This document shows, one piece after another, positions 28,099 to 59,650 of a DNA stretch of 64,000 nt. Within the stretch, counting starts at the first letter, position 1. Each line of letters begins with the position of its first letter. The DNA comes from Zanthoxylum bungeanum. Taxonomy: Eukaryota > Streptophyta > Magnoliopsida > Sapindales > Rutaceae. The position numbers and the translations under genes are program-made. The DNA lies in contig SKCR01037648.1 of the NCBI GenBank assembly GCA_019454045.1, forward strand, positions 1 through 64,000, read 5' to 3'. The notes below the pieces were generated by a model. That model was not told the DNA's origin. It saw nothing but the letters and a program-made list of their open reading frames with translations, and made no database searches.

Positions 28099-28440
28099 AT
28101 TAATCTGGGATTAATTAGAAGAGAGAGATAGAATTAATCTGGGATTAATTCGATGAGAGAGAAAATTAATCTGGGATTAATTGCGGAGATATTTTATCTC
28201 GGATAAAATATCGTTAAAGAGAGAGAACGATTAATTTGGAATTAATCGATAAATTAATATATTTGATATTAATCGAAATTGGATTTCGACGCGGAATTAA
28301 AATTAGATTTTAATTCGGGCGAACGAATTAATTTAGAATTAATTCGTTAGCGACGTGAATAGTGAATTCGCTAGGCGTAATCACTTAATTACGACGCGAC
28401 GGAAAATTCGTTAATTTGGAATTAGCGAACCCGAGCCCGA
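28099..28440. repeat. Run of consecutive triloop hairpins in the copia LTR
   Basis: Perfect inverted repeats with 3-base loops: 28099-28115 (7 bp, TGG), 28131-28151 (9 bp, TGG), 28164-28182 (8 bp, TGG), 28188-28212 (GATATTTTATC, 11 bp, TCG), 28228-28248 (9 bp, TGG), 28274-28288 (6 bp, TGG), 28294-28316 (10 bp, TAG), 28322-28348 (AACGAATTAATT, 12 bp, TAG). There are imperfect ones at about 28252-28273, 28361-28383 (TAG) and 28407-28429 (TGG). The equivalent stretches lie at 35953-36300, 14260-14560, 43190-43460, 45275-45560, 53395-53690 and, inverted, 4160-4350 and 63160-63475. Confidence 0.9.
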
Positions 28441-29207: not shown

Positions 29208-29221
29208 TGGTATCTAGAGTC
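29208..29221 (+). promoter_or_regulatory. Primer-binding site of Copia-C
   Basis: TGGTATCTAGAGTC matches the initiator-methionine site TGGTATCAGAGC with an inserted T. It starts two bases after the LTR. Confidence 0.8.
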
Positions 29222-32200: not shown

Positions 32201-32330
32201 AAGATTTTTGTTATGATGACTTTAATGCTTAATTTAATATACTTGTCATAAATCTAATTTTGGATTTAAGAAGTATTAAAATTGCAATTTATAATTCTTG
32301 GAGAATTAATTGACTATTCATGTAAAGTCA
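29222..32330 (+). other. Leader of Copia-C, non-coding
   Basis: About 3.1 kb with repeated runs of 'ttgattggatt'-type text, the GGGCC-rich block (30165-30345), the three palindromic 18-mers (31222-31238 degenerate, 31310-31327, 31578-31595) and the AGTTGGACTATT minisatellite (31780-32045). The antisense frame of related copies is frameshifted here (about 31184-31440, minus strand). Confidence 0.7.
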
Positions 32331-34887: not shown

Positions 34888-34897
34888 AAGTGGGAGA
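34888..34897 (+). promoter_or_regulatory. Polypurine tract of Copia-C
   Basis: AAGTGGGAGA lies two bases (one unpaired T) before the LTR start TGTTGG. It is the standard plus-strand primer of plant copia elements. Confidence 0.85.
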
Positions 34898-34898
34898 T

Positions 34899-37065: not shown

Positions 37066-37210
37066 CTTCCATCTTGAAATGACTTAATCTGCAAAAACTA
37101 AACACAGAAAATTAAATCACACAAAATCACAATATATACACAAATTGCATGGGTTGCCTCCCTGCGAGCGCTAAGTTTAGAGTGGTCAGCTAGACTTGAC
37201 TTCTCGAACG
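37066..37210 (-). other. Athila-2 segment between integrase end and ORF-X
   Basis: Minus strand: end of pol, then 'gggaggcaacccatgcaatttg'-like text (20-base core), a TTTAGTTTTTGCAG word resembling a splice acceptor, and the ORF-X start ATGGAAG at 37075-37069, where Copia-C is inserted. The same layout is in Athila-1 (54900-55020), where the acceptor is mutated to TTTTTGCATG. Confidence 0.5.
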
Positions 37211-37560
37211 TTAGGCTAGATCTGAAAGTGTGACACTTTCTTTTTGTCGCTCAAATGATTCTCCCCAATAGTGCTTAACACGCTTGTTTTTAACCTTGAA
37301 ATTTTTGTTGGAGTCAGGATCATGTATCTCAACGGCTCGTCTTGGTAAAACCTTGGTGATCACAAATGGACCTGACCACGTGATTTTGCTTCCATGGGAA
37401 GAATTTCCCCTTGATTTGTTTAACAGTACCTTCTGCCCTGGTTCTAGTTGTATACGCACTATCTTCATCATGTCTTTTCCTTGTACAATTTGGCATCCTC
37501 AAAAGCTTGTAGTGAAATTCCTCCAATTCGTTGAGCTGGTGGAACTTTTTCTCTTCTGTT
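37211..37560 (-). pseudogene. pol: Athila-2 integrase C-terminus
   Basis: The minus strand reads IQLEPGQKVLLNKSRG, KITWSGPFVITKVLPR, AVEIHDPDSNKNFKV and RVKHYWGESFERQ, the chromovirus-independent C-terminal domain of Athila integrases. A short stretch upstream ([10 protein letters not shown]) is in another frame. The core DDE domain, RNase H and reverse transcriptase are missing: the sequence passes from the protease-side linker (…EPEDKAHC) to this region near 37565. No intact pol is possible. Confidence 0.9.
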
Positions 37561-37565
37561 GCTTG

Positions 37566-38420
37566 TAGTGCAAGAATGCTTCTTCAGTACGCAGTGCGCT
37601 TTATCTTCAGGCTCCATAGGTAATTGACATGCTTTAAGTTTGTCAGTAGAACTTTTTCTTTCATCAGAGTTCTGAACGGTACTATGTATCACATCAAGTC
37701 TGAAACATTCCTCCTTCTTTTCATCATCTGGAAAATTCATGGCTTTGAAAACATTGAATGTTACTTCTTGGTCTTGTACCCTCATGGTTAGTTCTCTTTT
37801 TTGTACATCAATAATGGTTCGACCTGTAGCCAAGAATGGTCTCCCAAGGTGATTGGCACGTCTGCGTCTTCCTCCATATCAAGGACAATAAAATCTGCTG
37901 GGAAAATGAATTTGTCAACCTTGACCAGCACATCCTCAACTACGCCTCTTGGAAATATGAGCGTTCTATCAGCAAGTTGTAGTGAGACTGAAGTGGGCAT
38001 TGTTTCTCCAATCTGCAGTTTCCTAAAAATAGAAAAATGCATCAAGTTAACACTAGCACCTAAATCACACAGAGCCTTACAGAAGTCATGTTCTCCTATG
38101 GTGCAAGGAACAGTGAAACTGCCAGGATCTTTCAACTTTAGAGGAAGTTTTCTCTGAATGATGGCGCTGCATTCTTCTGATAATGCTACTGTCATAATCT
38201 CCCAATCTCCACTTTCGTGAAAGAATGTCTTTCATGAATTTGGCATAGCTGGGCATTTGTTCCACGCGCTTCTGCAAATGGAATGTTGATATGCAGCTTT
38301 TTGAACACCTCCAAGAATCGAGCAAACTGCTTGTCCAATTTATTCTTCTGAAACGTGAGGAGGAAAAGGTGGAGGTGGAGTGGTGATCTGTTCTTTCCTT
38401 TGCTTCTTTTTCCTCCATCT
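37566..38420 (-). pseudogene. pol: Athila-2 protease and linker
   Basis: The best frame (38195-37788) reads LSEECSAIIQRKLPLKLKDP, CDLGASVNLMHFSIF (active-site DLGAS), SLQLADRTLIF, GVVEDVLVKVDKF and PADFIVLDMEED. A one-base shift leads to ATGRTIIDVQKREL and VQDQEVTFNVFKAM. Upstream, frames with KKLHINIPFAEA and LSRKWRLGDY are shifted relative to it. The active-site block is intact, unlike in Athila-1, but the domain cannot be translated as one piece. Confidence 0.9.
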
Positions 38421-39197
38421 GTTGCTTTGTTTCTTTTGTAAAATTTCAATTGGTGTTGCCTTGATTCCAACATCTTTGTTGATTTCAGTACCGCTTTTTA
38501 ACATGATGGCATGACATTGCTCCTTCCCAATGTTCCTTGTATTTGGCTCTGTGTTGCTAGGAATGGTACATGGCGGTATGTAACTCTGAGCATTGGCCAG
38601 TTGTCCAATTTGATTCTCCAGTGCTTTAATAGAAGCTGATTGACTTGATTATTAATGCTGCTTGGGATTGAACATAGCATCATATCTTGCTGCTTGAGAT
38701 TGAAACATAGCATCATATCTTGCTGCTTGAGTGTCGTGTTTTGCTTCTATCTTTTTCAAGTGGGTCAACACTTCTGTTATTCCTGGTTCATTTGCATGTT
38801 CCTGGATTTGTTTTTTGTTGTTGGAATCCGGGTGGTGGATTGTTCATCTGCCCTGAATTGTTTCTCCATGCGAAATTGGGATGATTCCTCCACCTTGGGT
38901 TGTGTTGTAGGTGTTGGAATATGGATTGTTCCCCTGTCTGTTGAAATTATTGACATAATTCACCGTTTCTTTATGTTGGTTGAAAGATTCTGACTCAGGT
39001 GCTCCTCCAAAGGTGAACTTGTGGATCCACCATTAACTTTTATGTTAAGAGTTTCCAGATTTTTCAAATCACATCGAGTTTGGAATTCAGTGATGTGTTG
39101 GCTCCAACTTCATAAATTCCTGCTTCTTTGGATCATGCTCCTTTCTGTTGGCCATAAAGAATTGTTGTTGGCCATTTCTTCGATTAGGTCCCAGGCT
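38421..39197 (-). pseudogene. gag: Athila-2 gag C-terminal tail
   Basis: Frameshifted remains of the asparagine/proline-rich Gag tail seen at 11982-12497, for example the counterpart of YNPGW near 38905. A 32/33-base tandem duplication at 38666-38731 repeats QQDMMLC. Several stops occur. Confidence 0.75.
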
Positions 39198-39917
39198 TCA
39201 TCTTCTCCTTTTGCCATTAAAGCCTCCTCCAGCAGCAGCATCGATTGTGGTTCTCATTATTCCAGAAAGTCCATTATAGAATGTTTGGACTTGAAGCCAT
39301 TTTGGAATCTCATGGTTAGGACATTTCCGGATCAAATCTTTGTACCTTTCCCAAGATTCGCAGAGGGATTCTGAATCTTGTTGTACAAAGGATGTGATGT
39401 CATTCCTCAGCTTTCCGGTTCTGGCTGGTGGAAAGTACTTTGCAAGAAATTTGGTGGCTAAAGTGTTCCAAGTTGTGGTAGAACCTGCTGGTAGTGAATG
39501 TAGCCAAGCTTTAGCTCTATCCTTCAAGGAGTATGGGAAAACATGCAGACTCATTACTTCTTCTGATGCTCTGTTGTAGTTGAAAGTGCCACAAACTTCC
39601 AGGAAGTTACTGATGTGGGCATTAGGATCTTCAGTTGCATTCCCCCCGAACTTACCTGACTGCTGAATCATCTGAATGCATGTTTTGATGTCAAACGCAT
39701 TTGCTGGTAAGGGAGGAAGTACAATACAGGAAATGAGTGTGTCAACTACCGGAATGGTTCTGGCTCGAATGGGAATTGGTGGTGCAACCTCCAACGCTTC
39801 AGGTTCCATGTTGACTAAAGCTTATTGGCCTTCTCGCTTTTCCCTTCTCAACTGTCTGATGGTTCTTTCAATTTCTGGGTCAAGCGATCGGAGTTCAAAG
39901 CTTCTGTTTCGTCTCAT
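39198..39917 (-). pseudogene. gag: Athila-2 gag, Retrotrans_gag domain
   Basis: The likely start is ATG 39917 (MRRNRSFELRSLDPEIERT), placed after a TTTCAG acceptor-like word as in other Athila elements. A TAA follows REKREGQ about 31 codons in. From the next ATG (39809) 203 codons stay open. Family landmarks: FGGNATEDPNAHISNFLEVC (residues ~55-75), FPYSLKDRAKAWLHSLP, TWNTLATKFLAKYFPP, ITSFVQQDSESLCESWERYK and HEIPKWLQVQTFYNGL. Gag forms the virus-like particle that packages the element RNA. The frame ends at 39198 after a shift in the alanine/glycine stretch. Confidence 0.9.
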
Positions 39918-40024
39918 GTAGTTTCTGAGAACCTGAAACACAAGAAAACAAAAGCAATAAGTAAAAAGAAATTAGATACAAGTAACGTATCTAACCCCAA
40001 AATTAATAGTGAAAGATAAATAAT

Positions 40025-40042
40025 TCCCCGGCAACGGTGCCA
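40025..40042 (-). promoter_or_regulatory. Primer-binding site of Athila-2, Asp-tRNA type
   Basis: The minus strand reads TGGCACCGTTGCCGGGGA, six bases after the LTR. It differs by one base from the complement of plant tRNA-Asp (TGGCGCCGTTGCCGGGGA), the primer commonly used by Athila elements. Confidence 0.9.
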
Positions 40043-40048
40043 AAAACT

Positions 40049-41654
40049 TGACCGGCGTAAACACACACGTCTAACGCAAGCGCACATATCGTTCAAGTAG
40101 TATAAAAAGTATCGATCCCATGAGGACTTAATACCTAAGCTATTAATTTTATGAGGTCAAATGATTACTAGTATCTAACAGGTTGTTTGATAGATTTGAA
40201 AAGGTTACTATTCTAAATTTAAAAATAAGTAAATAAAATTGTTCGAAAGTAGGTTTAAGAAAGTTCACTATTAAAAACTATCTAGGGTTGTGATTTCTTC
40301 CCATATCATTTTAAAGATGAAGTGGTTATCTTAAAGTTGGGTAATATATTGATTATTAACCTGGAACACTAAATTATGTGTAAGCCTCTGTCGATGGTCA
40401 GACACAAATACCCAGTATAACCTAATGGAACCATATGTCTATGTCAACCAAATTACCTGGATTCATTAAGATTAAGTTCCAATTATGGCTACCCCCGCCC
40501 GACAGGTATATTCCTATCCTGTAAGGACATCTATTAAAGGGTTCTTTATCCTCAAGGAAGATCATGGGCTATTGAGTCTAAGGTCTTAAACTTAAAATCC
40601 TTATGTCTAGTTCATTTTAAGTTTACCAGTTCAATTTTATTAATAGCCAGTTAATAAAAAGTATTAAGATTAAGACTCAATAAATAAACCATTATATTAC
40701 CCAAACTATAATTTAACCCCTTATAAACCGGTGATATTGGATTTCATCACAACCCCAGATAACTGGCTTAGTTACGACACAAATATTTACTGGTAGTAAA
40801 AATTTAAATAAAATAAAAGACATAAAGTAAATTCTGAAATTAAATACTGAAAGTAAATTGCTGAAAAGTAAAAAAAGTAAAAAGTAAAAGTAAAAAGTAA
40901 AAAGTAAAAAAAATAAAAGTAAATTACTGAAAGTAAATTGCTGAAAAGTAAATTACTGAAATTAAAAAAGTAAAAGTACAATAAAAGAAAATGATGGGGG
41001 TTAGAGGATCAACTTTTATTACTACTATTTTAGATATCTCCCTTAATATAATATATTAACTTTGCGTGATAATTACCAACCAGCCATATAGGCGGTATCC
41101 TGATTAAGTCAAATTAATAATTAATTACCAACCGACCAACAGGCGGGTATCCATACTTAGTCAGGTTAAAACCAATTTATAATTAATTCCAACCGGCCAA
41201 TATAGCGGTATCCTCATTAAGTCAGATTTTAAATAGTTTTATATTTATATTTAAGGGAGATTAATCTAGATAGCAATAATAAAAGCTTTACCTTTACCCC
41301 AGCAAAGGGGAGTTACCTCCTCATTGCTTGAAAATAAAAACAGCAAAAGAAAGTAAAGAAAGAAAAGGTTTGTGCGTAAAAGTAAATTGCGAAAAGTAAA
41401 AACTGAAAAGTAAAGAAAGAAAGTGCGAAAGTGGAAATTCATTACTGGAAGCTGTAAATAAACAACAAGATACAATCTTCTTATTTATTCATTAGGAATT
41501 TCAAAGAAGAAAGTATGAATTTTACAAATGAAATGGCTTGGTATTTATAGGCAAAATCTTGCCTATATCAAATCATCCATCAAATTCTCCACCAAATCCA
41601 TTATTAATTTCTCTACTAATTACTCCACCAAATCCATAATTGCTCCACTAATTT
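40049..41654 (-). repeat. 5' LTR of Athila-2, truncated at its U3 end
   Basis: Collinear with 22139-23745 of the 3' LTR, including the AAAAGT simple repeat (40868-40930) and the three GGCGGTATCC repeats (41060-41215). It breaks off at CTCCACTAATT, where the 3' LTR continues for another ~500 bases. The next bases are Athila-1 integrase codons. Confidence 0.9.
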
Positions 41655-42115
41655 CTGGCCCATTCTTTTTAAAGATGCCTACTTGTTTTCTCTTCAATGT
41701 GAAAGGTGCCAGAGAACGAGAAATATTTCAAGGAGAAATGAATGACCTCTGTAAAACATTCTGGAAGTGGAGATATTTGATGTATGGGGATTGATTTTAT
41801 GGGACCTTTTTTTTCCATCAATTGGAAACCTGTACATACTGGTTGTTGTAGACTACGTCTCCAAATGGGTTGAAGCAATTGCACTACCATCAAACAATTC
41901 AAAAGTGGTGATTAAATTCCTTAAAATAATAATTTCACTCGCTTCGGAACACCTTAGGCTATTATTAGTGATGGTGGCACACATTTCTGCAACAAATATT
42001 TCGATGCACTCCTATCCAAATATGGAGTTACTTATAAAGTTGCCACTGCTTACCACCCACAGTCAAACGGACAGGTTGAAGTTTCAAACAGGGAGATTAA
42101 AAGAATCTTGGAGAG
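41655..42115 (+). pseudogene. pol: Athila-1 integrase core
   Basis: Starts WPILFKDA, with C..C of the zinc-binding domain (QCERCQR) near 41690. The core follows with first catalytic D in GIDFMG (about 41795), [21 protein letters not shown], second D in IISDGGTHF (about 41970) and E in [15 protein letters not shown] (about 42085). All three DDE residues are readable, but two frame changes and one stop before AIISD break the protein. It ends at GAGAG, where the solo LTR is inserted. Confidence 0.9.
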
Positions 42116-44145: not shown

Positions 44146-44216
44146 GAGGAGAACTGTTGGATCAACAAAGAATGACTGGTCTACAAACTGGATGACGCAC
44201 TATGGGCCTACCAGAC
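44146..44216 (+). pseudogene. pol: Athila-1 integrase remnant between two insertions
   Basis: Encodes the segment with KEW and LDDALWAYQT typical of Ty3/gypsy integrases after the core E. It continues at 54375 ([17 protein letters not shown]) across Copia-D. Confidence 0.85.
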
Positions 44217-46253
44217 TGTTGGATAATATGACCCATAGCGTCACTATTTGCACAGATCATTGTGTTGTTGTAGCAAATTAACTATGTAATAAGGAAATTG
44301 CACTCTCATCGTTTGTGATTAGATCACCATAGATATATAAATGAAGAGAGGTCCCTATGATTAGTTCCTGGACTGAGAATGATATGAGACAGTATCAGTC
44401 CCCAAAGGTTTAATCATTAAATATCCCTAGTCGTAGTATTATCGAGACTGGACATCGATAATGCGGAATAGACTAGTATTGCACTTGTGCGCGTTGTGAG
44501 GGCACAACGGCATAGTTCTCATATATATAAGTATTGGATACTTGTGCAAGTGCGATAGGAGGTCGTGTTTCAACGATGGTACGGGAAACAGCTTCGCTCT
44601 GGATAGACCCTTCGGAATCCCATTGGTATTATGACTAGGTGTCTATGGGAGGCCGAAATCAAGGTAGGTGTGTATAGTCTTAACCTGAGACTTGTATCGC
44701 TAATACTTACGACAATCGGTAAACTTTGGTTTTTGTGGTTGGGGATCTTAACTGGTTCTGTGTTCACCTCTTCTGGGTTTATCAGAGAATCGTAGTGTAT
44801 TGGATGTGATGTCAAGACGGAAGTGTCACTCCAGTCGTAATGGAGATGATGTCACGCAGGATACGGTATTAGTGCTCTTAAAGTGATGCGCATCCAATCG
44901 TGATATTATGACCAGGTCATGAATATCCGATTATAGAGACTAGTTACCAGACATCCGATATGTGTTTCGGACGGGGCAGACACTTATCCAGCCCCAGCCC
45001 TAGCACGTGATTATCCGATACTGGGCCGATATACACAATACAATTGTATACTACGCTTGATACAGATCTAGATATTCTTTGATGAATATGTCCGGAGAAC
45101 TTGGGAAGACTTGGTGCTTTGCTAGGAGTCGACCTTGTCTCGTAAATCGGTAGAACGTAGTACTTGGTACGTACGTGATTCGGATACTCCGACGACCGTA
45201 TTTACTGCCAACTTATCCGGGGATCTAATGGGTCGCTTCCCGATAATCCACCGATGACGCACAACTTGCACTCTTGAATAATCTGGGATTATATAGAAGA
45301 GAGAGAAAATTAATCTAGGATTAATAACGGAGATGTTTTATCCGGGATAAAATATCGTCTAGAGAGAGAGAGCGATTAATTCGGAATTAATCGATGTATT
45401 AGACGAAATTTGATTTCGACGCGGAATTAAAATTAGATTTTAATTCGGGCAAACGAGTTAATTAAGAATTAATTCGTTAGCGACGTAAATAATAATTTCG
45501 CCGGGGGCGATTATTTATTTTAATTCGATTGAATTAACGTCGCGACGTAAGCTCGGTATTTCGGAAATATCGAACCCGAACGCGTGAGTGCACGTGGGCC
45601 CACTTTCATTTGGAACATGTGGGGCCCACATGACACATGTCATTCTAATGCTTTGCATGTAGATTGTGTACATTGTACTCAATGTCATTGCATGTAGATT
45701 GTGTACAATGCACTCAATGTTATTGCATGGAAATTGAGTGTTTTATACTCTAAGCCATTGCATGTTATGTGTCATAATTTTATTATTAATTTAATAAATT
45801 ATGGAATAAATATAAATTGATTTTTGGTAAATAATTTTAATTAACATAACACAACTTCTTCTCTCTCAAATTCTCTCATCTCTCTCACGCCCAAGTGTGG
45901 CTTTTCTTCACTGGTTTTGAACCAGTTTGGGCGTGAGCTAAAGGGAAGCAAGAGTGGTTTCTCATGGTGAGAAATCAAGTGCTAGCACACTTACAAGTCT
46001 TGCGAAGGTGGTAGGGAGGTTCGACCATGAGACGGGATCCATCCGACGAAGCTAGGAGCTCCGTTTCTTCACTAAATTTTCTGTTTTTGTAGGCAGTGGA
46101 CTGCATGCAGTAAGCTTACATGGCAGTGCGTTTTTGGTTCATTGTCTTCAAATCGACTCTACCGATCAATGTGAGTATTCCGCTACCTCCGTTGATGTGT
46201 TCACACATAATTTCATGTCTTGTTTGATCTTGGGACCTTAGAATAAACTAACA
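44217..46253 (+). repeat. 5' LTR of Copia-D
   Basis: Includes the TATATATAAG box near 44522 and the hairpin run with the perfect 12-base palindrome ACGTCGCGACGT (45537-45548). A 36-base tandem duplication (about 45653-45725, core TGCATGTAGATTGTGTAC) is shared with the 3' LTR but absent from the solo LTR. Confidence 0.95.
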
Positions 46254-46254
46254 A

Positions 46255-46267
46255 TGGCATCATGAGC
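46255..46267 (+). promoter_or_regulatory. Primer-binding site of Copia-D
   Basis: TGGCATCATGAGC is a mutated form of the initiator-methionine site TGGTATCAGAGC. It starts two bases after the LTR. Confidence 0.7.
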
Positions 46268-49240
46268 TAATGTTGCAAGCATGAATTTGTAGGGCTTAAA
46301 ATTTGGGTAAATGTTTGTTGAGCATGATTTGAATAAATTGTTTGTTGTTTGAGTATGCTTATAACATGTTTAATTCATTTTGGTTGGACTAATTTGATGA
46401 AAAATGATTTGGAATTATTTTCCCCAAACTTATTGCCTTGGCCGAATGTGTAATGGATTTTGAATCCTTGGAATTTTTTGATTTTGATTCATTGGATGAG
46501 TTAAAATCATGTAGGATGATGTTAATTTGAATCGAATTGGATTAGATTTTGAATTGAACATAAACCCTAAATCTAGATGTTGGCCGAATGGTGTGATGAA
46601 ATTGATTGAAGCATGTTCTTGTGAAATTTGATGAATAAGAATGCTTACATGTATATAGAATGATGTTACATGGAATCAATTTATGAAAAATGCATTGGAT
46701 GATTTTTCCCCAAAAATTCCACCTTGGCCGAATGAGTAATGCCCTTTAATGTCTTGGTAATTTGATTTTGTGACATTGGATGTGTATAAAATCAAATCGG
46801 AGGTGATTTGATGTCGATTGTAGGTTCGATTGGATCGAAACCAAATCGGACACAAAATCCCTCCTTGGCCGAGAGCATGAAAGCATGTAAATGGGTTTGA
46901 TTTTTCATTATGTGTGTTTGACATGTGATAATGAATTGAATATGATTAATAAGACTAATTTGGTGTTTTAAAAATGTTGATTTAGTTGATTAATCATATA
47001 ATGCACTTTAGGTAATTAAATTGCGTAATTGGATTAGTGTAATTTAATTATTTAGGCTTAATTGGATTTGGGCTTGAATTGTTGTATTTGGGGCTATTGG
47101 GCTTGATTTATCAAGTTTGGTTTAGGCCAAGTGGATTGGATCCAATTGGGCCCAAAACCTTAACCATAAAGCCCAATTGCGACTAATGAACCTTTAATGT
47201 TCAATTGGGCCTAATGGGCCAAGATTGATTTATGGGCTTATGGGGTAAATCCCGGATTGGACTTTGGTTATCGGTTTGACCCGAGTTGACCAAAAGTCCA
47301 CGCCTTAAGAAATCAATCAAAAGCCCATTGGACTTTAATTGAATTGACGTTGGACGTTAATCGGTCTTTGAGACGCGTTACGATTAGATTTGGAATTTAA
47401 ATCGTAAAAGGTTTATTAAATAAAAGTGTAATATTTAATTTTGAATTGAATAGTGAATTAGTATTAAATACATGTTAAATTAGATTTAATAATGTAGTTT
47501 AATTTAATTCATGAATTCGTACTTTAGTACTTATTCGCAAAAACGAGTTTGACTCGAACAAAATCAAATCGTTGTTTGAACATTGGATGATCACTTAATT
47601 ATCAGATTAATTAATTTGATTAGATTGATTGATAGCATGCTTATGTGTGTGAATACATGGTTGTGTTGAATGAATAATGTATATCGGATGGATATTAGTC
47701 GGGTGGGCAATTTTAGAAATTGTTGTAATAAATTCGATTTATTAAATTGGACCTGCGTGTCCAGCCTTATCACCTTCTTTCTCTTTGTATTCTCTTCTCA
47801 CCTATTCCCCTCTATGTATATGAGGTTTCTTTAGAAGTGTAGTGTAACGGGTAGAATTGTACTAGTGCTAGCTTGAGTGAGAAAGGGAGAGATTTGATCT
47901 AGGATCAATGTGTTAAGTATCCATCCGCATATCATTATTATTTTATTTCATACTCGCTTTATTATGTATTTAGAATGCATGTTTAAGGGTGTATGATGAT
48001 GAGACCTTTATAAAGATAATTAAATTGGTAGCCAATTTGCACGCGAAAAACCCTCATTAAATATCATGCGTTTTTCCTTCCATTGAGTGATTCTTACTCA
48101 AGATCCGAGATTGGCAGGGGTTGTTGGCCAAAGTCAAGCCCTTGTCCATCAAAGATGTGTTTTAATCACGAGGCTTTGTTCTATATCGGTGTCGTGTCCA
48201 AGTTGTGGTTTGTTGGCCAAAGTCAAGACCACTTCTTGTCCATTGACATTGATTACGAATCCTCCATGGTCATGGGTCCGCCTTGACTGGGATCATCAGG
48301 TTTGTTGTGCCAAAGCCAAGGCCTAGTTGATTCAGAAAAAAGGTTAGGGTATATATATTGGATATATAGGCATATATGAGATATATGTTAGGACTTGGAT
48401 GTCCACCTAACCGGATCTAGGAATTGGATGAGATCCAATTGATCTTAGAGATCTACCTAGTTAATTATCATACAATTTGTTGGCCAAAGTCAAGATTGTG
48501 TGATATTTAACGGGATCCTAGCCCACTAGGAAACACGGTTTCCCGAGTACTCGACAGAGGGTTAGAGGCTCGACGAAAAATAGTGGGAGGCAAGTATTGA
48601 ATTTGCAACATTCGTTCGAATACTCGCTAAACACGCTCATTTATATTTTACTCGTCATATTAACAAAAGTATTAGTCGGACTAATATTTTATGTTGTTTT
48701 AATAAATATTATAGTTGGACTATATACAAACTCATTCAATATATAGTTGATTTTGTAATTGGATTATAGTAATCAATATAATTGAATTAAATGATAGTTG
48801 ATTTTATAATGGGATTATAGTAATCAATATTAAAATTGTAGTTGATTAAATAATTGGATTATTGTAATCATTATAATAAATAGTACCTTAATAATTTGAT
48901 TAAATAGTTGGACTATTAAATCAAGTAAAAATTGAAAGGTTGAATATTTAATATATAATCATTGGATTAAATGTTTTAAATGATTTAATTTTCAATTGGG
49001 AATTTATAATAGGTTAATTTATTTGATAAAATAACTTATTATTACTAAGCCCATATAATTAGCAAATAGTAGAGCATAAAGTCTTTGGAAGATTTATGTG
49101 ATGATGACTTTAGTGCTTAATTGATATACTTATAATAAATCTATCTTTAGATTTAAAAGTATTAAAATTGCAATTAATAATTCTAGGAGATTAATTGACT
49201 ATTCTAGTGGAGAAAAGTCAAAATTTGCAATTGGGCATGT
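46268..49240 (+). other. Leader of Copia-D, non-coding
   Basis: Same order as the other copia leaders: GGGCC-rich block (47055-47230), three exact copies of TTGTTGGCCAAAGTCAAG (48121-48138, 48210-48227, 48477-48494) and the minisatellite (48665-48930). The antisense frame is broken. Confidence 0.7.
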
Positions 49241-52200
49241 AGCACAAGGTGCACATCATTTCGATATTCTAAACCCAAGGCTTGCCCAAAGGTTTGTGAA
49301 ATATTGAAAAGGTAATTGACATATCCCAAAGTGACTACCATTTGGATATGGAAGACACGAAGGAATTAAAGAAAGGGCGAGGCTCTAACTTCAAAATATT
49401 TGTCAAAGTTATGTTCACTAGTAGTATTAAAATTGGATTTTAAATACTTAGTGTGGTACATAAAATATATGTATTAACGTTCAGAATCCGCTGTGAGCTG
49501 GATACTGGCTTCAGCCGAGATTTCTCTGCGAATTGGAAACGGGACGAAATCGCTGTTTCGACCGCAGATACCTAAGTTTAGGAACTACCCTTTGGGTATG
49601 TACTTAAATTAGGAAATGTTATAATGTAACTAGTTTAACTCTAGAGACATTATCTCTATATCAGTGTTTAATCCATTGCGGATAAAACCTTTATATTCTA
49701 GAACACTAAAGTGTTTCAATATATAAAGATGATACTGAGATAAATACATTGGATGTAAATAACAGAATTTATATTTTGAATATAAATAAAATCTCAAACA
49801 TATAAAATGATAAATAAATAGCTCAAATTGATTTGATCAATGGAGACTTATTTGTGGCATTGTTGTCTGGGACACAATTAAACAAGACTCGTATATCCAC
49901 ACTGTTGAAGAGTGGGTACTAGGACTGATTTGACTATTCAAATAAGGTCTACGAATCTAGTTTATTAAACAAGACTCGTATATCCACACTTTTGTAGAGT
50001 GGGTACTAGGACTGATTTGACTATTCAAATAAGGTCTGCGAATCTAGTTTATTAGGTAAAATACCTAAAATGCTATTTACTTGGTAATAGTAAAAGGGCC
50101 ACCGATCTGTTAGCCCTATTCATGGTGAAGTAAGTGGGCCCATATCTAGCTGGGCTAGATGTGAACATGAATATTTCGTGACCTTAACAGATGTGACATC
50201 ACGTTGTGGTTATGTGTTTCTTTTGAAGAACACAGATCGGAAACTTTAGAGTTTCGACACGAAGTAGACAAACAGATCGGCTATAGTATTATTCCGCCAC
50301 GGTGAAACCGTAATGGAAAATACTTAAGCAGTAAGTTTCATACATAAATGAAAGAGTACGGTATTCTTTCGTATGAGGACTCCTCCCGAGACACGTTAGT
50401 TAAACGGTGTGTCCGAACCAAAAACCGAATTTTGTTGGACATAATAAGGTTTATCACGAGTCGCTCTGAGCTACTATTTCCTTCAACAGGATATGTATTA
50501 ACAGTGCAAAACTTATTTAGAATAAGGTTCCATATAAATCTGTTTGACAGATATCATATAGGATATGAACAGGGAAGAAACGAGGTTTGTCATTCCTGAT
50601 AATTTGGGTATGCGAGGCATAGCGTTTGGATGATACCAAACTAAGGACCCAAATTGGATAAGTGCCAATATAAGTTATCCTAAGGGAAACCTTAAATATA
50701 GTACTTGTAAATCCCACATGAGAACAATATAATTGTTGCTCACCATGCGGTTTTCCTGAGAGGAATACCGATATGCAGTGGTCAGTGGGAGGATAGTGAT
50801 ACTCGATGAAAATCGGGGTAATACTGATCAAGGCACGAAGTCCTTAATGGAACACAAACAGTTCATCTATGATGAATCTATACCATTAATCTTCAAATAC
50901 ACAAGAAACTAGTAGATCGGATAGAGTCAGAAAACAACCTAGGGTATGGGTTTTTGATCTCACCCCATAAAGATGTCAATCTTATGGTGGTGTACCATCT
51001 GACTACGTTTAGAGGAAGTGATACGAGGTATCGACTCCATGTTATGGCAAAGTGCCATGAGTCCGAAATGGATTCCATGTATAACAACTATGTTTGGATA
51101 CTAGTTGTTGTACCACAAGGCGTTGTGCCTATGATACATTAAAGGTCTTCAAGGAAGACATACATGGAAGGCAACATACCAACGTACAAAGCAGGGCTTT
51201 TGACGGAAAGGTAGCGTTATCAACATTATGTTAATAACGGTTCAACCTTTTTACCTGTTGCCATGATAAATCCATTTTGAAGATGCTTGTTGATAACTGT
51301 ATATTTCATTGATGAAATATGTCAGTTACAAATCAAAATCGCTTTCCTGAAAAGGAAACCTTTTGGAGGATGCTTACAACATCCTGACGATTTTGTATAA
51401 CCGACAAACCAGGTTTGCGGGTTATTCGATCCATGTTTGGATTGATGCAAGCATAAGGTTCTTGGAACTGTTGTTTTGAAATAATCATAATGGTTTATGA
51501 TTTGACTCAAAACGAAATAATTCTTGTGTATATAAGGAGGTTAGTGGGAGAGCGCACTGACAGTGAAATTCCCATAAAACAATTGGTGAAAGCTTGGTTT
51601 TCATAAATATTCTTTCATAGAAATTCTCTGTAGAATTCTGGGGAGTAACAACCTTTATTCAAGGAATAAAGATCTACTGGGATAGATTTGGAGTTGTTAA
51701 CACTCTCTGGGAAATTGTACATTTAAAATGTACTTGTATTGGTGTCTCATACGCTTCGAGCATATGGAGTCACAATCGGGTCAATCCAAGTGACAGTCAC
51801 TGGATTGAAGATTAAAGAACATCTGTTAGTATCTGAGAGAACTAAAGATGTTGTCTTAAACTATGGAGATGGAGAACTTGAAGTGACTGGGATCACTGCT
51901 GCAAGTTTCCAAACCGGTAAATACTACTGCGGTACTATAAAGTTTGAACACCGGGACAGTGAGCTGGAAATCTTCCTAGCAAGATAACTGTAGCCGAATA
52001 AACAACAAATGCGGATCATTGCTGCAGCTGCAGCAATAGAAGACCATCTGGGTCGAAAATAAATCTGATAAGATTAGATAAAGTTCTGTTAGCAGCTGAG
52101 CTAGGCGTCAGCATAGGCTAAGGAATTAAAGGTCTCATCGACGATCCAGATATATACTTCTGTATCATCTGATTCGTTCGGATCATACATCGTGGCGATG

Positions 52201-52324
52201 TGATGATCGTGTAAATCGCGTCAGACGATATTAAGCAAATCCGCTGACGAAAACCTTTCCTCAGCAATTTGAGCGAATTGTACATAGTTCGAGTGTAGGA
52301 CACTTGAGTGACTCGCTACGTGCC
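49241..52324 (+). pseudogene. pol: Degenerate gag-pol of Copia-D
   Basis: More complete than in Copia-C but also broken. The gag tail lacks the zinc knuckle and the protease has the same LNT-stop-CGT change (about 49437-49457). Integrase and post-integrase remnants follow; NNYVWILVVVPQGVVP (51082-51130) and a TYKAGLL word (about 51193) match the start of copia reverse transcriptase (…VWxLVDLPxG, TYKARLVAKG). RNase H keeps NYGDGELEVTGITAASFQTG (about 51856-51920) and WKSS, and the C-terminus runs to the polypurine tract. A tandem duplication lies at 49881-50054. Confidence 0.85.
49881..50054 (+). repeat. 87-bp tandem duplication in Copia-D pol
   Basis: Two copies (49881-49967 and 49968-50054) of a block starting AACAAGACTCG and ending CTAGTTTATT, with few mismatches. 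Copia-C has one copy (about 32993-33080). The period is a multiple of three, 29 codons. Confidence 0.85.
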
Positions 52325-52334
52325 AAGTGGGAGA
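52325..52334 (+). promoter_or_regulatory. Polypurine tract of Copia-D
   Basis: AAGTGGGAGA precedes TGTTGG by one T, identical to Copia-C. Confidence 0.85.
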
Positions 52335-52335
52335 T

Positions 52336-54374
52336 TGTTGGATAATATGACCCATAGCGTCACTATTGCACAGATCATTGTGTTGTTGTAGCAAATTAAC
52401 TATGTAATAAGGAAATTGCACTCTCATCGTTTGTGATTAGATCACCATAGATATATAAATGAAGAGAGGTCCCTATGATTAGTTCCTGGACTGAGAATGA
52501 TATGAGACAGTATCAGTCCCCAAAGGTTTAATCATTAAATATCCCTAGTCGTAGTATTATCGAGACTGGACATCGATAATGCGGAATAGACTAGTATTGC
52601 ACTTGTGCGCGTTGTGAGGGCACAACGGCATAGTTCTCATATATATAAGTATTGGATACTTGTGCAAGTGCGATAGGAGGTCGTGTTTCAACGATGGTAC
52701 GGGAAACAGCTTCGCTCTGGATAGACCCTTCGGAATCCCATTGGTATTATGACTAGGTGTCTATGGGAGGCCGAAATCAAGGTAGGTGTGTATAGTCTTA
52801 ACCTGAGACTTGCATCGCTAATACTTACGACAATCGGTAAACTTTGGTTTTGGTGGTTGGGGATCTTAACTGGTTCTGTGTTCACCTCTTCTGGGTTTAT
52901 CAGAGAATCGTAGTGTATTGGATGTGATGTCAAGACGGAAGTGTCACTCCAGTCGTAATGGAGATGATGTCACGCAGGATACGGTATTAGTGCTCTTAAA
53001 GTGATGCGCATCCAATCGTGATATTATGACCAGGTCATGAATATCCGATTATAGAGACTATTACCAGACATCCGATATGTGTTTCGGACGGGGCAGACAC
53101 TTATCCAGCCCCAGCCCTAGCACGTGATTATCCGATACTGGGCCGATATACACAATACAATTGTATACTACGCTTGATACAGATCTAGATATTCTTTGAT
53201 GAATATGTCCGGAGAACTTGGGAAGACTTGGTGCTTTGCTAGGAGTCGACCTTGTCTCGTAAATCGGTAGAACGTAGTACTTGGTACGTACGTGATTCGG
53301 ATACTCCGACGACCGTATTTACTGCCAACTTATCCGGGGATCTCATGGGTCGCTTCCCGATAATCCACCGATGACGCACAACTTGCACTCTTGAATAATC
53401 TGGGATTATAATAGAAGAGAGAGAAAATTAATCTAGGATTAATAACGGAGATGTTTTATCCGGGATAAAATATCGTCTAGAGAGAGAGAGTGATTAATTC
53501 GGAATTAATCGATGTATTAGACGAAATTAGATTTCGACGCGGAATTAAAATTAGATTTTAATTCGGGCAAACGAGTTAATTAAGAATTAATTCGTTAGCG
53601 ACGTAAATAATAATTTCGCCGGGGGCGATTATTTATTTAAATTCGATTGAATTAACGTCGCGACGTAAGCTCGGTATTTCGGAAATATCGAACGAACCCG
53701 AACGCGTGAGTGCACGTGGGCCCACTTTCATTTGGGAACATGTGGGGCCCACATGACACATGTCATTCTAATGCTTTGCATGTAGATTGTGTACATTGTA
53801 CTCAATGTCATTGCATGTAGATTGTGTACAATGCACTCAATGTTATTGCATGGAAATTGAGTGTTTTATACTCTAAGCCATTGCATGTTATGTGTCATAA
53901 TTTTATTATTAATTTAATAAATTATGGCATAAATATAAATTGATTTTTGGTAATAATTTTAATTAACATAACACAACTTCTTCTCTCTCAAATTCTCTCA
54001 TCTCTCTCACGCCCAAGTGTGGCTTTTCTTCACTGGTTTTGAACCAGTTTGGCGTGAGCTAAAGGGAAGCAAGAGTGTTTCTCATGGTGAGAAATCAAGT
54101 GCTAGCACACTTACAAGTCTTGCGAAGGTGGTAGGGAGGTTCGACCATGAGACGGGATCCATCCGACGAAGCTAGGAGCTCCGTTTTTCACTAAATTTTC
54201 TGTTTTTGTAGGCAGTGGACTGCATGCAGTAAGCTTACATGGCAGTGCGTTTTTGGGTTCATTTGTCTTCAAATCGACTCTACCGATCAATGTGAGTATT
54301 CCGCTACCTCCGTTGATGTGTTCACACATAATTTCATGTCTTGTTTGATCTTGGGACCTTAGAATAAACTAACA
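52336..54374 (+). repeat. 3' LTR of Copia-D
   Basis: Nearly identical to 44217-46253; ends CTAACA followed by CAGAC. Hairpin loops and the 36-base duplication are conserved. Confidence 0.95.
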
Positions 54375-54900
54375 CAGACAACTTATAAAACACCCATTGG
54401 TATGTCCCCATATAGAATGGTTTTTGGGAAAGTGTTCCATCTGCCGGTTGAGCTTGAACACAAGGCGTATTGGGCACTGAAGAAGTTGAATCTTGATCCA
54501 CAAGTTGCAGGAGAGAAACGACTTCACCAACTCAACGAATTGGAGGAATTTCGCCTACAGGCTTATGAGAATGCAAGATTATACAAAGAAAAGACCAATA
54601 AATGGCATGATAAAAAAAATAGTATGTAGACAACTTGAACCAAGGTAGCAGGTGTTGTTATACAATTCAAGGTTAAAACTATTCCCTGGAAAGTTGAAAT
54701 CAAGGTGGTCAGGTCCATTTGTGATCACTCAAGTTTTACCATATGGAGTTGTTGAGTTACTTGATCCCAACACCAACGAAACATTCAAAGTTAATAGCCA
54801 GCGTGTCAAGCACTACTAGGGAGAATCATTTGAGCGACAAAAAGAAAGTGTCACACTTTCAGGTCCAGCCTAACGTTCAGGCAGTCATGTCTAGCTGACG
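54375..54900 (+). pseudogene. pol: Athila-1 integrase C-terminus
   Basis: [54 protein letters not shown] and [12 protein letters not shown] in one frame to a stop at 54627. The C-terminal domain follows in shifted frames: RWSGPFVI (about 54710), VELLDPN and KHY, and a TAG where Athila-2 has tryptophan in HYWGE. The pol end and the downstream GGGAGGCAACC region align with Athila-2. Confidence 0.9.
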
Positions 54901-55012
54901 ACTTTAAACTTAGCGCTAGCAGGGAGGCAACCCATGCAATTTGTGTATTTATCGTGATCTGATGTGTTTTATTTTTGTGTGTTTAATTTTTGCATGTAAA
55001 GTTATTTCACGA

Positions 55013-55476
55013 TGGAAGATGTTCTCGTAAATCTTCACAAGCAATTTCCTTCTCTCCCTCAAAATTCTCTGATGAAAGTCTACAAAGCTAGCTTGGAACG
55101 AATGAGACTACTGATGATAAAAGGTATTCCTACTGACATTCATTGGATTATTGAAGCACGGGTCTGATTGGCAGGTGAGTCTTCTGACTCTTTTATTTCA
55201 CATTTATTTGGTTTAGGAAGAAGCACATATGCTAAAAATAGAAGAGCTAAAAGAATGGGTGTATGCTATAAATGTGCTCGTGTGTTTTGTAATACTCGTT
55301 GTCATTCTTTAGGAATGGTATCTAATAACTATGAAGATAAGATAAATTTCATTAGGGATGGCTTCAGTAAGAAGTCTTTGGATGACATATCTAAGACTCT
55401 TGAGACGCATCCCAGTGGAAACGTGTATCACGAAATTCTCTTGTTATATACACAATTCCGAAAAGAAAGACAATAG
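55013..55476 (+). pseudogene. ORF-X of Athila-1, four-cysteine frame of unknown function
   Basis: ATG 55013 opens MEDVLVNLHKQFPSLPQNSL, then MKVYKASLERMRLL, ending at a TGA (about 55167) in the same place as in Athila-2. A second frame (to 55476) follows at once: NRRAKRMGVCYKCARVFCNT with cysteines spaced C-x2-C-x4-C-x3-C (55264-55302), then EDKINFIRDGFSKKSLDDIS and LETHPSG. GGCAG/GTGAGT at about 55170 could be a splice donor. Known: many Athila elements have an env-like frame here. Seen: no signal peptide or membrane segment. The four cysteines suggest metal binding, but I recognise no family. Conservation in both copies indicates a former gene. Confidence 0.5.
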
Positions 55477-55818
55477 TTAAGTCTCAGGAATCTGACTCTA
55501 AAAGACCATATTTGCCAATTTATAAGAAAATTGGATGGGAAGCTTGTCCCTGACGCATAGACGTTAATCAAGCATTTACTTTATTGTAAATATTATTTGT
55601 ATTTATCTAATAATTGTGATTTTTGTTGTTGTTTTCTTTTATTTTCTCTCAAAGGATCCAGATCTTTTTGACCTTTCATCGATTTACTGTTTTACTACTA
55701 ATCGTTCTTTGGAAGATACTAGTGCTATTATTACTCACCCCTTTTTCAGTTGTTATAAATTCAACTCATCATTGCACTTTTGAAGGCATCCAGATTTGAG
55801 AAAAGAAACATACATAAA
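55477..55818 (+). other. Spacer between ORF-X and LOG-like gene in Athila-1
   Basis: AT-rich and collinear with 26262-26574. Contains a TTTTATTTTCTCTCAAAG word that could be a splice acceptor. No frame of note, apart from a 13-codon in-frame extension upstream of the LOG-like ATG. Confidence 0.5.
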
Positions 55819-56471
55819 ATGGAAGCCACTTCAAGAAGACGAGTTGTAAATATCTGTGTCTTTTATGGTACTAGTGTTGGTACTAAGCCACAATACGTAG
55901 CGGCAGCACATGAATTGGGTCGAGTCATAGCTGAAAAGAATATGCACCTAGTATATGGCGGTGGAAATCTTGGACTAAGGGGGATCGTTTCAAAGGTCGT
56001 ACAAGAAGGAGGTAGTCAAGTCTTGGGAATCATCCCAAAACCCTTGGTGGAGGCGAATCTGATAGGATCATCAAACAGAGAGGAACAAATTGTGTCAGGT
56101 ATGTCTGAACGACTGGTAGAAATGATTAACCGTGCTGATGCTTTTATTGCTTTGCCAAGTGGCTTGGGTACAATGGAGGAAATTTTTACAGTACTATCTT
56201 GGGAAAACTTGAACATACACCAGAAACCAATTGGACTGTTTAACGCTGATGGATTCTATGATTTTCTTTGTGTATTTCTTGATGATGCCCGAAGAAATGG
56301 GTTCGAGTCAAACCTTTAAAAGAACTCATCTTCACTGCCAGAACTGCCCATGATTTAATTGACCAAATCTTAGCCTTTGAACCACAAATTGACCCTATCC
56401 TTTCCAAGATAAACTGGTCCGATAATGATCGTGGTAAAAAGCGTCAGATGAATCTGGTTGTTAACGTATAA
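55819..56471 (+). pseudogene. LOG-like: LOG-like cytokinin-activating enzyme gene carried by Athila-1
   Basis: Start chosen at ATG 55819 (MEATSRRR) because Athila-2 starts there; an upstream in-frame ATG (55780) is not shared. It stays open to NGFESNL at 56319, then a single lost A near 56311 shifts the frame. Reading on in the shifted frame gives PLKELIFTARTA, INWSDNDRGKKRQ and a TAA at 56471, again about 217 codons. Motifs: ICVFYGTSVG, YGGGNLGL, QVLGIIPK, GMSERLVEM, ADAFIALPSGLGTMEE (56155-56181; first glycine of PGG replaced by serine), KPIGLFN. The gene is intronless and about 80% identical to the Athila-2 copy. It needs one repair fewer than that copy but has a changed catalytic motif. 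Confidence 0.92.
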
Positions 56472-57786
56472 TTTTAATATAGAATTTCTACTAACCAGGT
56501 ACTATCTTATAAACTCATCTTCTACCTTTTAAGACATTGGGGACAATATCTCATTTAGGTTTGGGGCTGGGGAATAGTTTTGGTATTTGTTTTTTATGTT
56601 GTTTTTATTTTTAGTAAAAAATAGTTGTAGTATTTTGTTTTGTTTTTATTTTTAGTCAAAAATTTTCGAAAAATAAAAAAAAAATTGAAAAATTTAACAA
56701 AAAATCAAAAAAAATTATTTTGTGTTTTTAATTTGATTAATCTGATTAATCAGGTGAAATTGGTATGAGATTGTTGTGTAAGGAATTTCCACTCCTGAGA
56801 CATATCTCAACCTATTTCGGAACAAGTTAATTTTTGTTTATTTCATTTTGAATTATTTAATTTGTGAATTCTCCATAATACTAATTAAAATGAATCTTCA
56901 TATGCTCAGTTGACAGATATTATCAACATACATGGTAACATACGGACATGAGTTGTAATTGACAAGTTTTTAATATTCAAAGCTCTAGTCTAATTGGAGG
57001 AATCATCTAAAAAATGATGGGATAAAAAAAAAACATCTGAGATCCGAGTTATTAAGTCCGTATGGGTGTTTTTAACACCTAATGCCCTAAAACCAACTGG
57101 TTTGGGAGCCACTGGCCCAAAGCTCGCTACATAGATCAAGGAATATATATATATATCTGAAGTCTAAGTAATCAAGTCCGTAGGGGTGTCTTAACACCTA
57201 GTGCCCTAAAGCAAACTGGTTTGGGAGTCACTGGCCTAAAGCTCGCTACATGGATGGAAGATATTGTATATATAAAAAAAATCAGAAAAATATTCAATTG
57301 TTTAAAAAAGATGTGAATTCTGATATAACTTTAAGACTCAAATATTACCTTCTTTTCAACTACATTTGTGACTATTGTAGGCAAAAATGAGTTGATTAAT
57401 ATTTTGTTCGCTGTGTGTATGGAGAATGGTAAACATAATCGGAGAATTTACTTATTCAGTAATTTAGAAAGAAAGAAAACAACTTTAAACTTGGATAAGA
57501 AGTTTCATCTGATTAGTCACTAACTTCTTTATTCTCTTTTCTCTTGTCTTTTTGTTTTTATGTACATCAGTTTTACTATCTTTTTACTTTTGTAAAACAT
57601 TTGTGGGTATCGTTGCTGTAAGCCCTCACGAGACTACAACTTGTCGACTAGGGACAGCTAGGGGTTTAAAGACTTGTTGCATATGCTAAATGCAACTGTG
57701 ATCCCTACGAAAGTGGCTTAGTTAAATTTTATTTTAAAGATGTTTATGTTATTTTATGTTGTTTTGCTCGAGGACTAACAAAATGT
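56472..57786 (+). other. 3' untranslated region of Athila-1
   Basis: Non-coding. Includes an A-rich stretch (56620-56715) and a tandem duplication at about 57047-57130 and 57160-57245 with ACCAACTGGTTTGGGAG and GCTCGCTACAT cores, shared with Athila-2 (24825-25035). A CATTTGTGGGTATCGTTGC region (57598-57616) is also shared. Confidence 0.7.
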
Positions 57787-57800: not shown

Positions 57801-59650
57801 TGATAAGTGGTAAATGTATCATTATTTCCCACTCATTTGACCTAATATTTTGTATAGTTTCTTATGTTTTGTGAATATTTTGATGTGTTTTGTGTTTCTT
57901 TGTAGATAAATAAAGTTTCAGGACTCTCTGGAGGTGATTTCTTGGTCAAAACAATGAAAAACGGACAAAAGGGCAAAATCATCTTTTGGCGCGTCGCGAC
58001 CGTTAACGTTTTCCGGACCTCTGCTAATATACGCCGGGACACGTGTACCAATCAGAGGGATTCTGCTAAAATGTGCTGGCTTACTAACATGCACCGAATC
58101 TGCTAACGTGCGCATGCCATGTGTCAACATCATAGCAAATCATGCTAACGTACACCGGACACGTGTCACCATCACACGGTGCCGACAATCAACATCGCCA
58201 CATCATCGTCACATCAGAATAATCATTGAGTTGCCGACGCCGTCTGCCATGTGTCATCTTATTGCAAATTTGTCTGCCACATGGCATCGCCTCTGTATGC
58301 CACGCCGTAAATCACGGTGCGTCGCGACGCGTGAACCCATCGACGCCTATAAATTCAGCTCGAAATTTCAGTTTCAGATGTACCTTCCTCTCTGTAATTC
58401 CTTGAGAATTCTAAGGAGTTTGTATATAGTTTGTTTAATTTCAGTTTTATAATTAATTTTATTTACTTTTTATAATAGTAATTTACTTTCTTTACTTTTT
58501 CAGTTTTTACTATTCAGCAATGAAGAGGTAACTTCCCCTTGCTAAGGCGAAAGGTAAAGCTTTTATTATTGTTATTTTGATTAATCTCCCTTAATTATAA
58601 TGTAATAACTATTTAAAACTTGACTTAATGAGGATATCGCTATATTAGCCGGTTGGTAATTATATTAAATTGGTTTTAACCTAACTAAGCAAGGATACCG
58701 CCTAGTTGGTCGGTCGGTAATTAATTATTAATGTGACTTAATCAGGTTACCGTCCTAATGGCTGGTTGGTAATATCACACAAGTTATTATATTATATTAA
58801 GGGAGATATCTAAAATAGTAGTAACAAAAGTGGATCTTTTAACCCTAACATTTTCTTTTATTATACTTTTTCCTTTTTAATTTCTAGCATTTACTTTTCA
58901 TCATCTTACTTTATGTCTTTTATTTTTAAGTTCTTACTAGTTGTAAATATGTGTCGTAGCTAAGCCCATTATCTGGGGTTGTGATGAATTCCAATATCAC
59001 CGGTTTATAAGGGGTTATTTTATAATTGGGGTAATATAAAGGTTTACTTATTAAGTCTTAAGCTAATGTGTCTTGTTAACTGGCCACTAATAAGATTGAT
59101 CGGGTAAACTTAAAATAAACTTGACGAAGGAATTTTAGGTTTAAAACCCTAGACTTAATAGCCCACGATCTTCATTGAGGATAGATAACCCTTTAATAGA
59201 TTTTCTTACAAGATAGACATATAGATGTCAGGCGGGTGTAACCACAATTGGAACTTAGTCTTAATGAATTCAGGTAACTTGGTTGACATAGACATATGAT
59301 TAATTGGGTTACACTAGGTATTTGCATCCGACTATCAACAGAGGCTTTTGCAGAATTTTGTGTTCCCGGTTAGTAAACCAATATATTATACAAACATAAA
59401 ATAATCACTTCATCTTTAAAAGATATTGGAAGAAATCACAACCCTTGATAGTTTAATAAATTTGTATTTTCCTCAACCAACTTTTGCGCCATTTTATTTA
59501 CTTGTTTTAAATTTAAGTCACCATTACAATCAACAATCATCCATTAGATACTAGTAATCATTTGAGTTCATAAAACTAATAACTTAGGTATTAAGTCCTC
59601 GTGGGATCGATACTTCTTATACTACTTGAATGATACATGCGCTTGCGTTA
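57801..59650 (+). repeat. 3' LTR of Athila-1, truncated
   Basis: Starts TGATAAGTGG and matches the Athila-2 LTR at the first ~100 bases and from about 58430 onward, including the three GGTATCC/GGATACCGCC repeats (58625-58770). It stops near 59650 within 'gcttgcgtta', about 30 bases short of the expected end. The segment from about 57905 to 58400 is GC-rich and unrelated to the Athila-2 U3. Confidence 0.85.
58039..58355 (+). promoter_or_regulatory. Putative U3 promoter of Athila-1 with G-boxes and TATA box
   Basis: TATAAATT at 58348-58355, preceded by two ACACGTGT palindromes (58039-58046 and 58159-58166) containing the plant G-box CACGTG. Related CATGTGTCA and CCACATGG words lie between. G-boxes are bound by bZIP and bHLH factors, often in stress or light responses. 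The Athila-2 LTR has a TATA box at the corresponding place but none of these boxes. Confidence 0.5.

Follow-up and report, generated by a model that had tools for sequence, protein, structure and literature searches.

A selected LOG-type gene with an EAR-type C-terminal tail in an Athila-like retrotransposon family of Zanthoxylum bungeanum

Why should an LTR retrotransposon carry a gene of the LONELY GUY (LOG) type, whose product would belong to the cytokinin riboside 5'-monophosphate phosphoribohydrolase family? The window analysed here, a stretch of 64,000 nucleotides of Zanthoxylum bungeanum DNA, holds two Athila-like elements, Athila-1 and Athila-2, each with such a gene apparently sited between integrase and the 3' LTR. 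To our knowledge, the roles of the extra genes of plant retrotransposons are mostly unknown; this cargo comes from a well-understood hormone-enzyme family, offers direct evidence of selection and bears a readily testable motif. The following features of the window are used throughout.

11807–13203, plus strand: end of gag and protease region of Athila-1, 82–84% identical to stretches of Athila-2 37855–39331
21090–22134, plus strand: end of protease and N-terminal part of reverse transcriptase (RT) of Athila-1, 3' side broken by Athila-2; 21090–21273 matches Athila-2 37672–37853
22135–41656, minus strand: Athila-2, with LTR copies at 22137–23746 and 40047–41656, a PBS-like site (40042) and, nested within it, another element (27044–37065)
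25607–26261, minus strand: LOG-like gene of Athila-2, homologous end to end, interrupted by an in-frame stop and by two changes of frame; tail GKRRRINLDLNL kept
26575–27052, minus strand: Athila-2 counterpart of ORF-X, interrupted by stops and frameshifts (tblastn pieces)
41657–42109, plus strand: integrase core of Athila-1 (rve 1.7e-4, Integrase_H2C2 0.021, both under the curated cutoffs)
54378–54819, plus strand: presumed integrase C-terminal part of Athila-1, 5' of ORF-X, with DNA homology to Athila-2 37066–37614
55012–55476, plus strand: ORF-X of Athila-1, which would encode a Carla_C4/Viral_NABP-like nucleic-acid-binding protein and is interrupted by a single in-frame stop
55742–55749, plus strand: possible splice acceptor TTTTTCAG 5' of LOG in Athila-1 (predicted function); aligned site CTTTTCAG at 26320 (minus strand)
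55819–56471, plus strand: LOG-like gene of Athila-1, open over 55819–56319 (166 aa), the remainder in another frame to a stop at 56471
58482–59650, plus strand: 3' LTR sequence of Athila-1, part matched, 85% and 84% identical to the two Athila-2 LTRs

The nested order was derived from a self-comparison of the window and a reading of the junctions. Athila-1 (plus strand) is scattered across 11807–59650 through nested insertions, in the pieces listed above and one more at 44149–44212, ending with ORF-X, LOG and the 3' LTR to about 59650; no 5' LTR turned up in the sequence before 11807. Frames 11976–12497 and 12703–12990 of Athila-1 gave no Pfam match, nor did its RT frames within 21090–22134, which we take to be RT from typical Athila motifs, nor 54402–54629 and 54652–54819, which by their motifs are presumably the integrase C-terminus. 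In Athila-2 the gag is clear (Retrotrans_gag, 5.3e-22), the protease-like frame is weak and under its cutoff (Asp_protease_2, 0.0086), and the frames pass from the protease region near-directly to the integrase C-terminus (37614–37672, minus strand), so that this element appears to be without RT and integrase core. Directly after its 5' LTR stands TGGCACCGTTGCCGGGGA, presumably an Asp-tRNA primer binding site of the Athila type. The order gag, protease, RT, integrase, with the extra gene or genes before the 3' LTR, is pieced together from homology, Pfam matches that are weak beyond gag, and sequence motifs; the Athila name itself we take from such motifs and the label of the first-pass annotation. 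Two further nested LTR elements, at 44213–54377 and 27044–37065, are younger (LTRs 98.9% and 98.0% identical), and CAGAC stands on each side of the one at about 44213–54377.

Athila-2 was inserted inside the RT of Athila-1 in the opposite orientation, and one side of the insertion seems to have been deleted along with part of that RT. The internal regions of the two elements are 84% identical, against 96% for Athila-2's own LTRs (96.3% over aligned bases, K2P 0.038). Because of the orientation, the position inside RT and this difference in identity, the two are separate transpositions.

The first-pass annotation had described a full-length LOG reading frame in Athila-1 and an orthologous one in Athila-2; homology does run the whole length of both, but the open frames do not. 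In Athila-1 an ATG-to-stop frame of 166 aa (55819–56319, plus strand) matches Pfam Lysine_decarbox (PF03641; 3.2e-28, 99 bits against a cutoff of 27), exceeds the cutoff of NCBIfam TIGR00730 (2.4e-40, 138 bits, cutoff 96) and finds Arabidopsis At2g37210 (LOG3) in the PDB at 8.2e-45. The frame shifts near 56305, and homology runs on in a second frame to 56468, just 5' of the stop ending at 56471. Athila-2 aligns from 26261 to 25610 (minus strand); its LOG codon 52 is an in-frame TGA, and its frame shifts at two points. A 113-aa piece of it passed PF03641 (104 bits) and stayed below the TIGR00730 cutoff (89.8). NCBIfam NF058542 (cutoff 300) is uninformative for these proteins, since the Arabidopsis LOG3-type protein P0140 itself scores 132, far under it. 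Neither window copy is intact (one frame change in Athila-1, one stop and two frame changes in Athila-2), so neither can make a full LOG. As read from its sequence, the gene is intronless in both elements and located after integrase. Element sequence on both sides of it aligns as had been claimed, 24151–27043 against 57910–55014 forming one colinear HSP at 80.7%.

A search of the source genome covered 3.956 Gb in 51,709 contigs. With the Athila-1 copy as DNA query, the best 40 of 12,854 first-look candidates, which are not confirmed copies, were scored; these are the Athila-1 copy itself plus 39 more, at 90–92% identity. Athila-2 and these 40, the best matches to a broken copy, make up a set of 41. 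LOG is present in all 41 and ORF-X lies on the same strand in 35, its first residue 684–736 bases ahead of that of LOG. Twelve copies have no stop and 29 carry a stop, and seven align without any interruption. The motif PGG.GT.E reads exactly so in 21 and differently in 20; the arginine of M..R is kept in 32, the other nine having a stop at its codon. On the 3' side of 20 copies an LTR end could be located in 11; comparing the flanks of these 11 gave no match among 55 pairs, which is what separate transpositions should produce. The outcome in which no further element carries the gene is contradicted by the 39 additional LOG-bearing copies.

The other caveat raised in the first-pass annotation, that both window copies derive from one segmental duplication and not from two transpositions, is ruled out by the nesting, the opposite orientation, Athila-2's own LTR pair and the unmatched flanks of the further copies. 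A broader form of it, adding two separate LOG captures as a source of the window copies, also runs against the colinearity of ORF-X, spacer, LOG and 3' untranslated stretch; nothing in its favour came to light, and we give it almost no credence.

For the protein search, with LOG3 as query, the best 150 of 58,158 candidates were scored; no internal stop is listed for 133 of them, and the other 17 contain at least one. All 150 match without a break over 200–209 of the 215 query residues, so there is no exon-by-exon host gene among them, and the host donor LOG was not found among these best 150 of 58,158 matches. Eight copies picked at near-even steps down the 150-row list all hold a complete 217-aa LOG frame ending in RINLDLNL. 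PGG.GT.E is kept in seven of the eight, and their identity to LOG3 is about 48–50% across some 203 residues. ORF-X occurs in three, as matches with stops; the other five show none in the 1 kb or so preceding LOG.

Is the frame maintained, or is it debris? A transduced host LOG could be a passive passenger, functionless in the element and hitch-hiking with it, as the broken state of both window copies and the stop in 29 of 41 copies might suggest. The substitutions point the other way. Between Athila-1 and Athila-2 the LOG Ka/Ks is 0.27 (bootstrap 0.18–0.41, 215 codons), or 0.24 (0.14–0.42) before the indels, whereas the intervals of all 18 spacer and 3' untranslated frames reach 1. Low values in this comparison also occur in one antisense frame each of LOG (0.38, 0.22–0.68) and ORF-X (0.37), that of LOG being in register with third codon positions. 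Among the eight complete copies, a sample biased by a LOG3-ranked list that favours conserved and intact frames, the 28 pairs have a median Ka/Ks of 0.125 (0.02–0.25; Ks 0.176, Ka 0.0225), out-of-frame medians are 0.99 and 2.09, and differences at the three codon positions number 249, 101 and 643. In the 40 DNA-ranked copies the LOG median is 0.35, with 0.48 and 1.12 in frames 1 and 2; spacer and 3' untranslated sequence there gives 0.66–0.73, a non-coding baseline of about 0.7 and not 1. This weaker signal is as expected if most differences post-date insertion. The in-frame constraint speaks against a strict passenger, as do 217-aa homologues elsewhere, and we regard that reading as very unlikely. 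We are all but certain that the Athila-lineage LOG came from a plant LOG before the split of Athila-1 and Athila-2 and that purifying selection on the protein has preserved it as copies of the element accumulated. The proposal that the cargo was present in an Athila-like family before both insertions, and was amplified with the element, is upheld by the colinear flanks, the separate insertions and the further copies.

A search with the window LOG returned 1209 proteins, the best 120 of which were examined. Among these 120 the nearest four full-length relatives (217 aa, 74–83% identical) are without names, and the named ones come from Xanthoceras, Acer, Dipteronia and Populus. For the tree, 100 rows were assembled: 85 of the 120 LOG homologues, 11 of a host set of 120, 1ydh, 1t35, 5zbj and the Athila-1 frame, with Athila-2 omitted and the hosts being LOG1/LOG3-type plus LOG8. 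Athila-1 groups with P0001, P0002, P0003 and P0005 (support 100/99). It forms with the 85 homologues one 86-row clade (100/95) apart from the 12 host rows (LOG1/LOG3-type, LOG8), a clade that arises partly by construction because the window LOG was the query that supplied its rows. With hosts of these two kinds, the tree points to no particular donor LOG. A 39-row group with Populus names has many short branches, resembling a burst of copies. Populus proteins named LOGL10 (P0050, P0055) fall inside the retro-LOG clade and may be cases in point: in genomes such as this one, annotation could mistake intact element-borne LOG frames for LOG genes of the host. The leader of P0007, DTSAIITHPFQVYKF, resembles element sequence upstream of the window LOG, DTSAIITHPFFSCYKF; the latter part of that leader recurs in P0012, and this likeness ties P0007 and P0012 to homologous elements.

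What kind of protein is being kept? The catalytic signature is mostly preserved across the 120 homologues: PGG.GT.EE in 100, PGGxGTxE in 103 and the arginine of M..R...M in 104. Athila-1 itself has PSGLGTMEE at the first motif, and MSERLVEM where the host has MHQRKAEM, the lysine of the host M..RK motif being replaced. That replacement, the 20 of 41 genome copies that depart from PGG.GT.E and the EAR-type tail described below would fit a LOG fold that no longer has an enzyme role and instead scaffolds the recruitment of corepressors in the nucleus or interferes with silencing in some other way. We think this improbable, given the conservation of both motifs among the homologues and of PGG.GT.E in seven of the eight complete copies.

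The C-terminal tail can be read in 85 of the 120 homologues (72 of the main clade and 13 of an early-branching Xanthoceras/Acer group). In the main clade a conserved tryptophan is followed by a basic cluster (69 of 72 tails) and then by LxLxL, present in 60 of 72 compared with a mean of 6.1 and a maximum of 16 in shuffled tails; one further tail reads DLNLTP. The motif is kept amid varied residues (LDLSLSL, LDLTLRL, NLDLNL). It is found in 32 of the 38 readable tails among the 41 copies of this genome and in all eight complete copies, and Athila-2 retains it, whereas Athila-1 has lost it (a degraded MNLVVNV). None of 120 LOG1/LOG3-type proteins has LxLxL in its last 20 residues. The EAR consensus is given as LxLxL or DLNxxP in the relevant passage of PMC6283911, and on this sequence definition the retro-LOG tail is of the EAR type. 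Most homologues thus show, in their sequence, a LOG catalytic signature together with a C-terminal basic cluster and then an EAR-type LxLxL. We infer that such a tail would bind TOPLESS.

Another possibility is that the cargo is a plain cytokinin-activating enzyme, its tail being structural or a simple nuclear signal, with no corepressor recruited. The strong retention of PGG.GT.EE (100/120) and M..R...M (104/120) is consistent with this, as is the Xanthoceras/Acer group, where the basic cluster is present in 11 of 13 tails and LxLxL in none. It accounts poorly for an LxLxL that persists among changing neighbours at ten times or so the shuffled expectation (60 of 72 against 6.1), and we hold it to be a minority prospect, though a serious one. 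Compared with host LOG1, LOG3 and LOG8 (At2g37210, At5g11950), retro-LOG shares about 48–50% identity to LOG3 (in its complete copies) and a mostly kept catalytic signature; it differs in being contiguous without introns, in lying in LTR elements, in forming a separate clade and in its basic and LxLxL tail.

The neighbouring ORF-X adds a second, less constant component. Its 102-aa stretch in Athila-1 (55168–55476) matches PF01623 (4.8e-8) and PF05515 (1e-5), both above cutoff, and a 110-aa piece of the Athila-2 gene alone gave no Pfam match. Of 19 homologues, precomputed annotation places PF01623 in 15 and PF05515 in 12; a rescan of 15 found PF05515 at or above cutoff in 13 and PF01623 in 10, with none in three reversed controls. 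Between Athila-1 and Athila-2 the Ka/Ks is 0.26 (0.14–0.52) over 55168–55476 and 0.73 (0.30–2.70) over the 5' part. When guided by whole homologues it is 0.34 (0.20–0.56) or 0.68 (0.42–1.07), which makes the case for selection weaker for ORF-X; in the 40 DNA-ranked copies it is 0.51, with 0.77 and 0.66 out of frame. ORF-X is less well kept than LOG and was not found in some copies. It resembles the Carla_C4/Viral_NABP proteins of flexuous plant viruses in its above-cutoff Pfam matches, which span a basic arm and zinc-finger region; it differs in being retrotransposon-borne, and the weak model of the homologue P0124 (pLDDT 67, pTM 0.54) had no structural match at E ≤ 0.001 among the 46 BFVD matches listed. 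In IMG/VR viral contigs, 194 pattern stretches for relatives of ORF-X and 39 for those of LOG yielded no confirmed relative. According to PMC12172455, silencing is suppressed by a cysteine-rich protein that a citrus mandarivirus encodes; the analogy does no more than suggest a similar role for ORF-X. Whether the NABP-like gene acts, or once acted, on nucleic acid or silencing we would put at even chances. A splice-donor-like CAGGTGAG lies inside ORF-X at the homologous sites 55172 (plus strand) and 26886 (minus strand), with one further occurrence in the window.

Taking these lines together, the overall reading that we favour, with somewhat more confidence than doubt, is that of a selected, probably nuclear, cytokinin-activating effector carried by an Athila-like family. 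The LOG protein would be made from the element's own transcript, perhaps spliced to the acceptor just upstream, and would enter the nucleus to act as a small effector. Release of active cytokinin could keep cells that are able to transmit new copies dividing and permissive, and the EAR tail could dock on TOPLESS-type corepressors and so bias host transcription; that the enzyme and EAR functions operate together is a tentative proposal, slightly short of an even bet. The NABP-like gene, related to the cysteine-rich proteins of flexuous plant viruses, may be an older or optional partner. In its fullest form the model is speculative and we would not expect all of it to hold: retro-LOG would be the element's nuclear effector, releasing cytokinin and docking on TOPLESS, in some copies beside a silencing-suppressor-type gene, and would condition meristem or germline for transposition much as a pathogen effector might. 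If true, a resident mobile element would be manipulating host development for its own spread.

Two Athila-like elements in Steinbauerova et al. 2011 are said to be similar to LOGL4, and reportedly share with ours the Athila lineage and the 3' position of the cargo. Alvarado-Marchena et al. 2022 (PMC9289625) found a LOG-type YgdH domain in consensus LTR retrotransposons from Citrus sinensis and C. clementina and, once their filter was off, from Populus trichocarpa as well; they describe this as 'in line with' Steinbauerova et al. 2011. The first-pass statement that no Ty3/gypsy family with LOG cargo had been described was therefore mistaken. The Citrus and Populus elements have the same cargo domain and belong to the same superfamily; they come from other host genomes, and selection, an EAR-type tail and an NABP neighbour go unmentioned in that section of PMC9289625. 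LOG cargo was not found in the passages of PMC7264820, PMC6317226 and PMC11963269 that bear on the subject. Neither the NABP neighbour nor an EAR tail on LOG was found among the full-text matches listed, which is weak evidence, as subscription papers are mostly uncovered. New here are the selection on the LOG frame, the EAR-type tail and the NABP neighbour; the LOG cargo itself had already been published.

The same section describes Gypsy elements of Phalaenopsis that carry an AlkB-type m6A RNA demethylase with activity shown in vitro (PMC9289625). There too an additional enzyme domain has become fixed in one Ty3/gypsy lineage; the enzyme and the plant group differ. Among pathogen effectors, HaRxL21, Jsi1 and PopP2 are, in the passages concerned, likewise foreign agents with an EAR motif in the plant cell; here the motif sits on the LOG protein of a mobile element resident in the genome, and TOPLESS binding is a prediction.

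Two repeat tracts of the window may be recorded. A tandem duplication of about 120 bases occupies 57035–57273 in the 3' untranslated part of Athila-1, and imperfect tandem repeats, partly of 43–49 bases, lie at 7977–9434 in the window's most G+C-rich 4-kb block.
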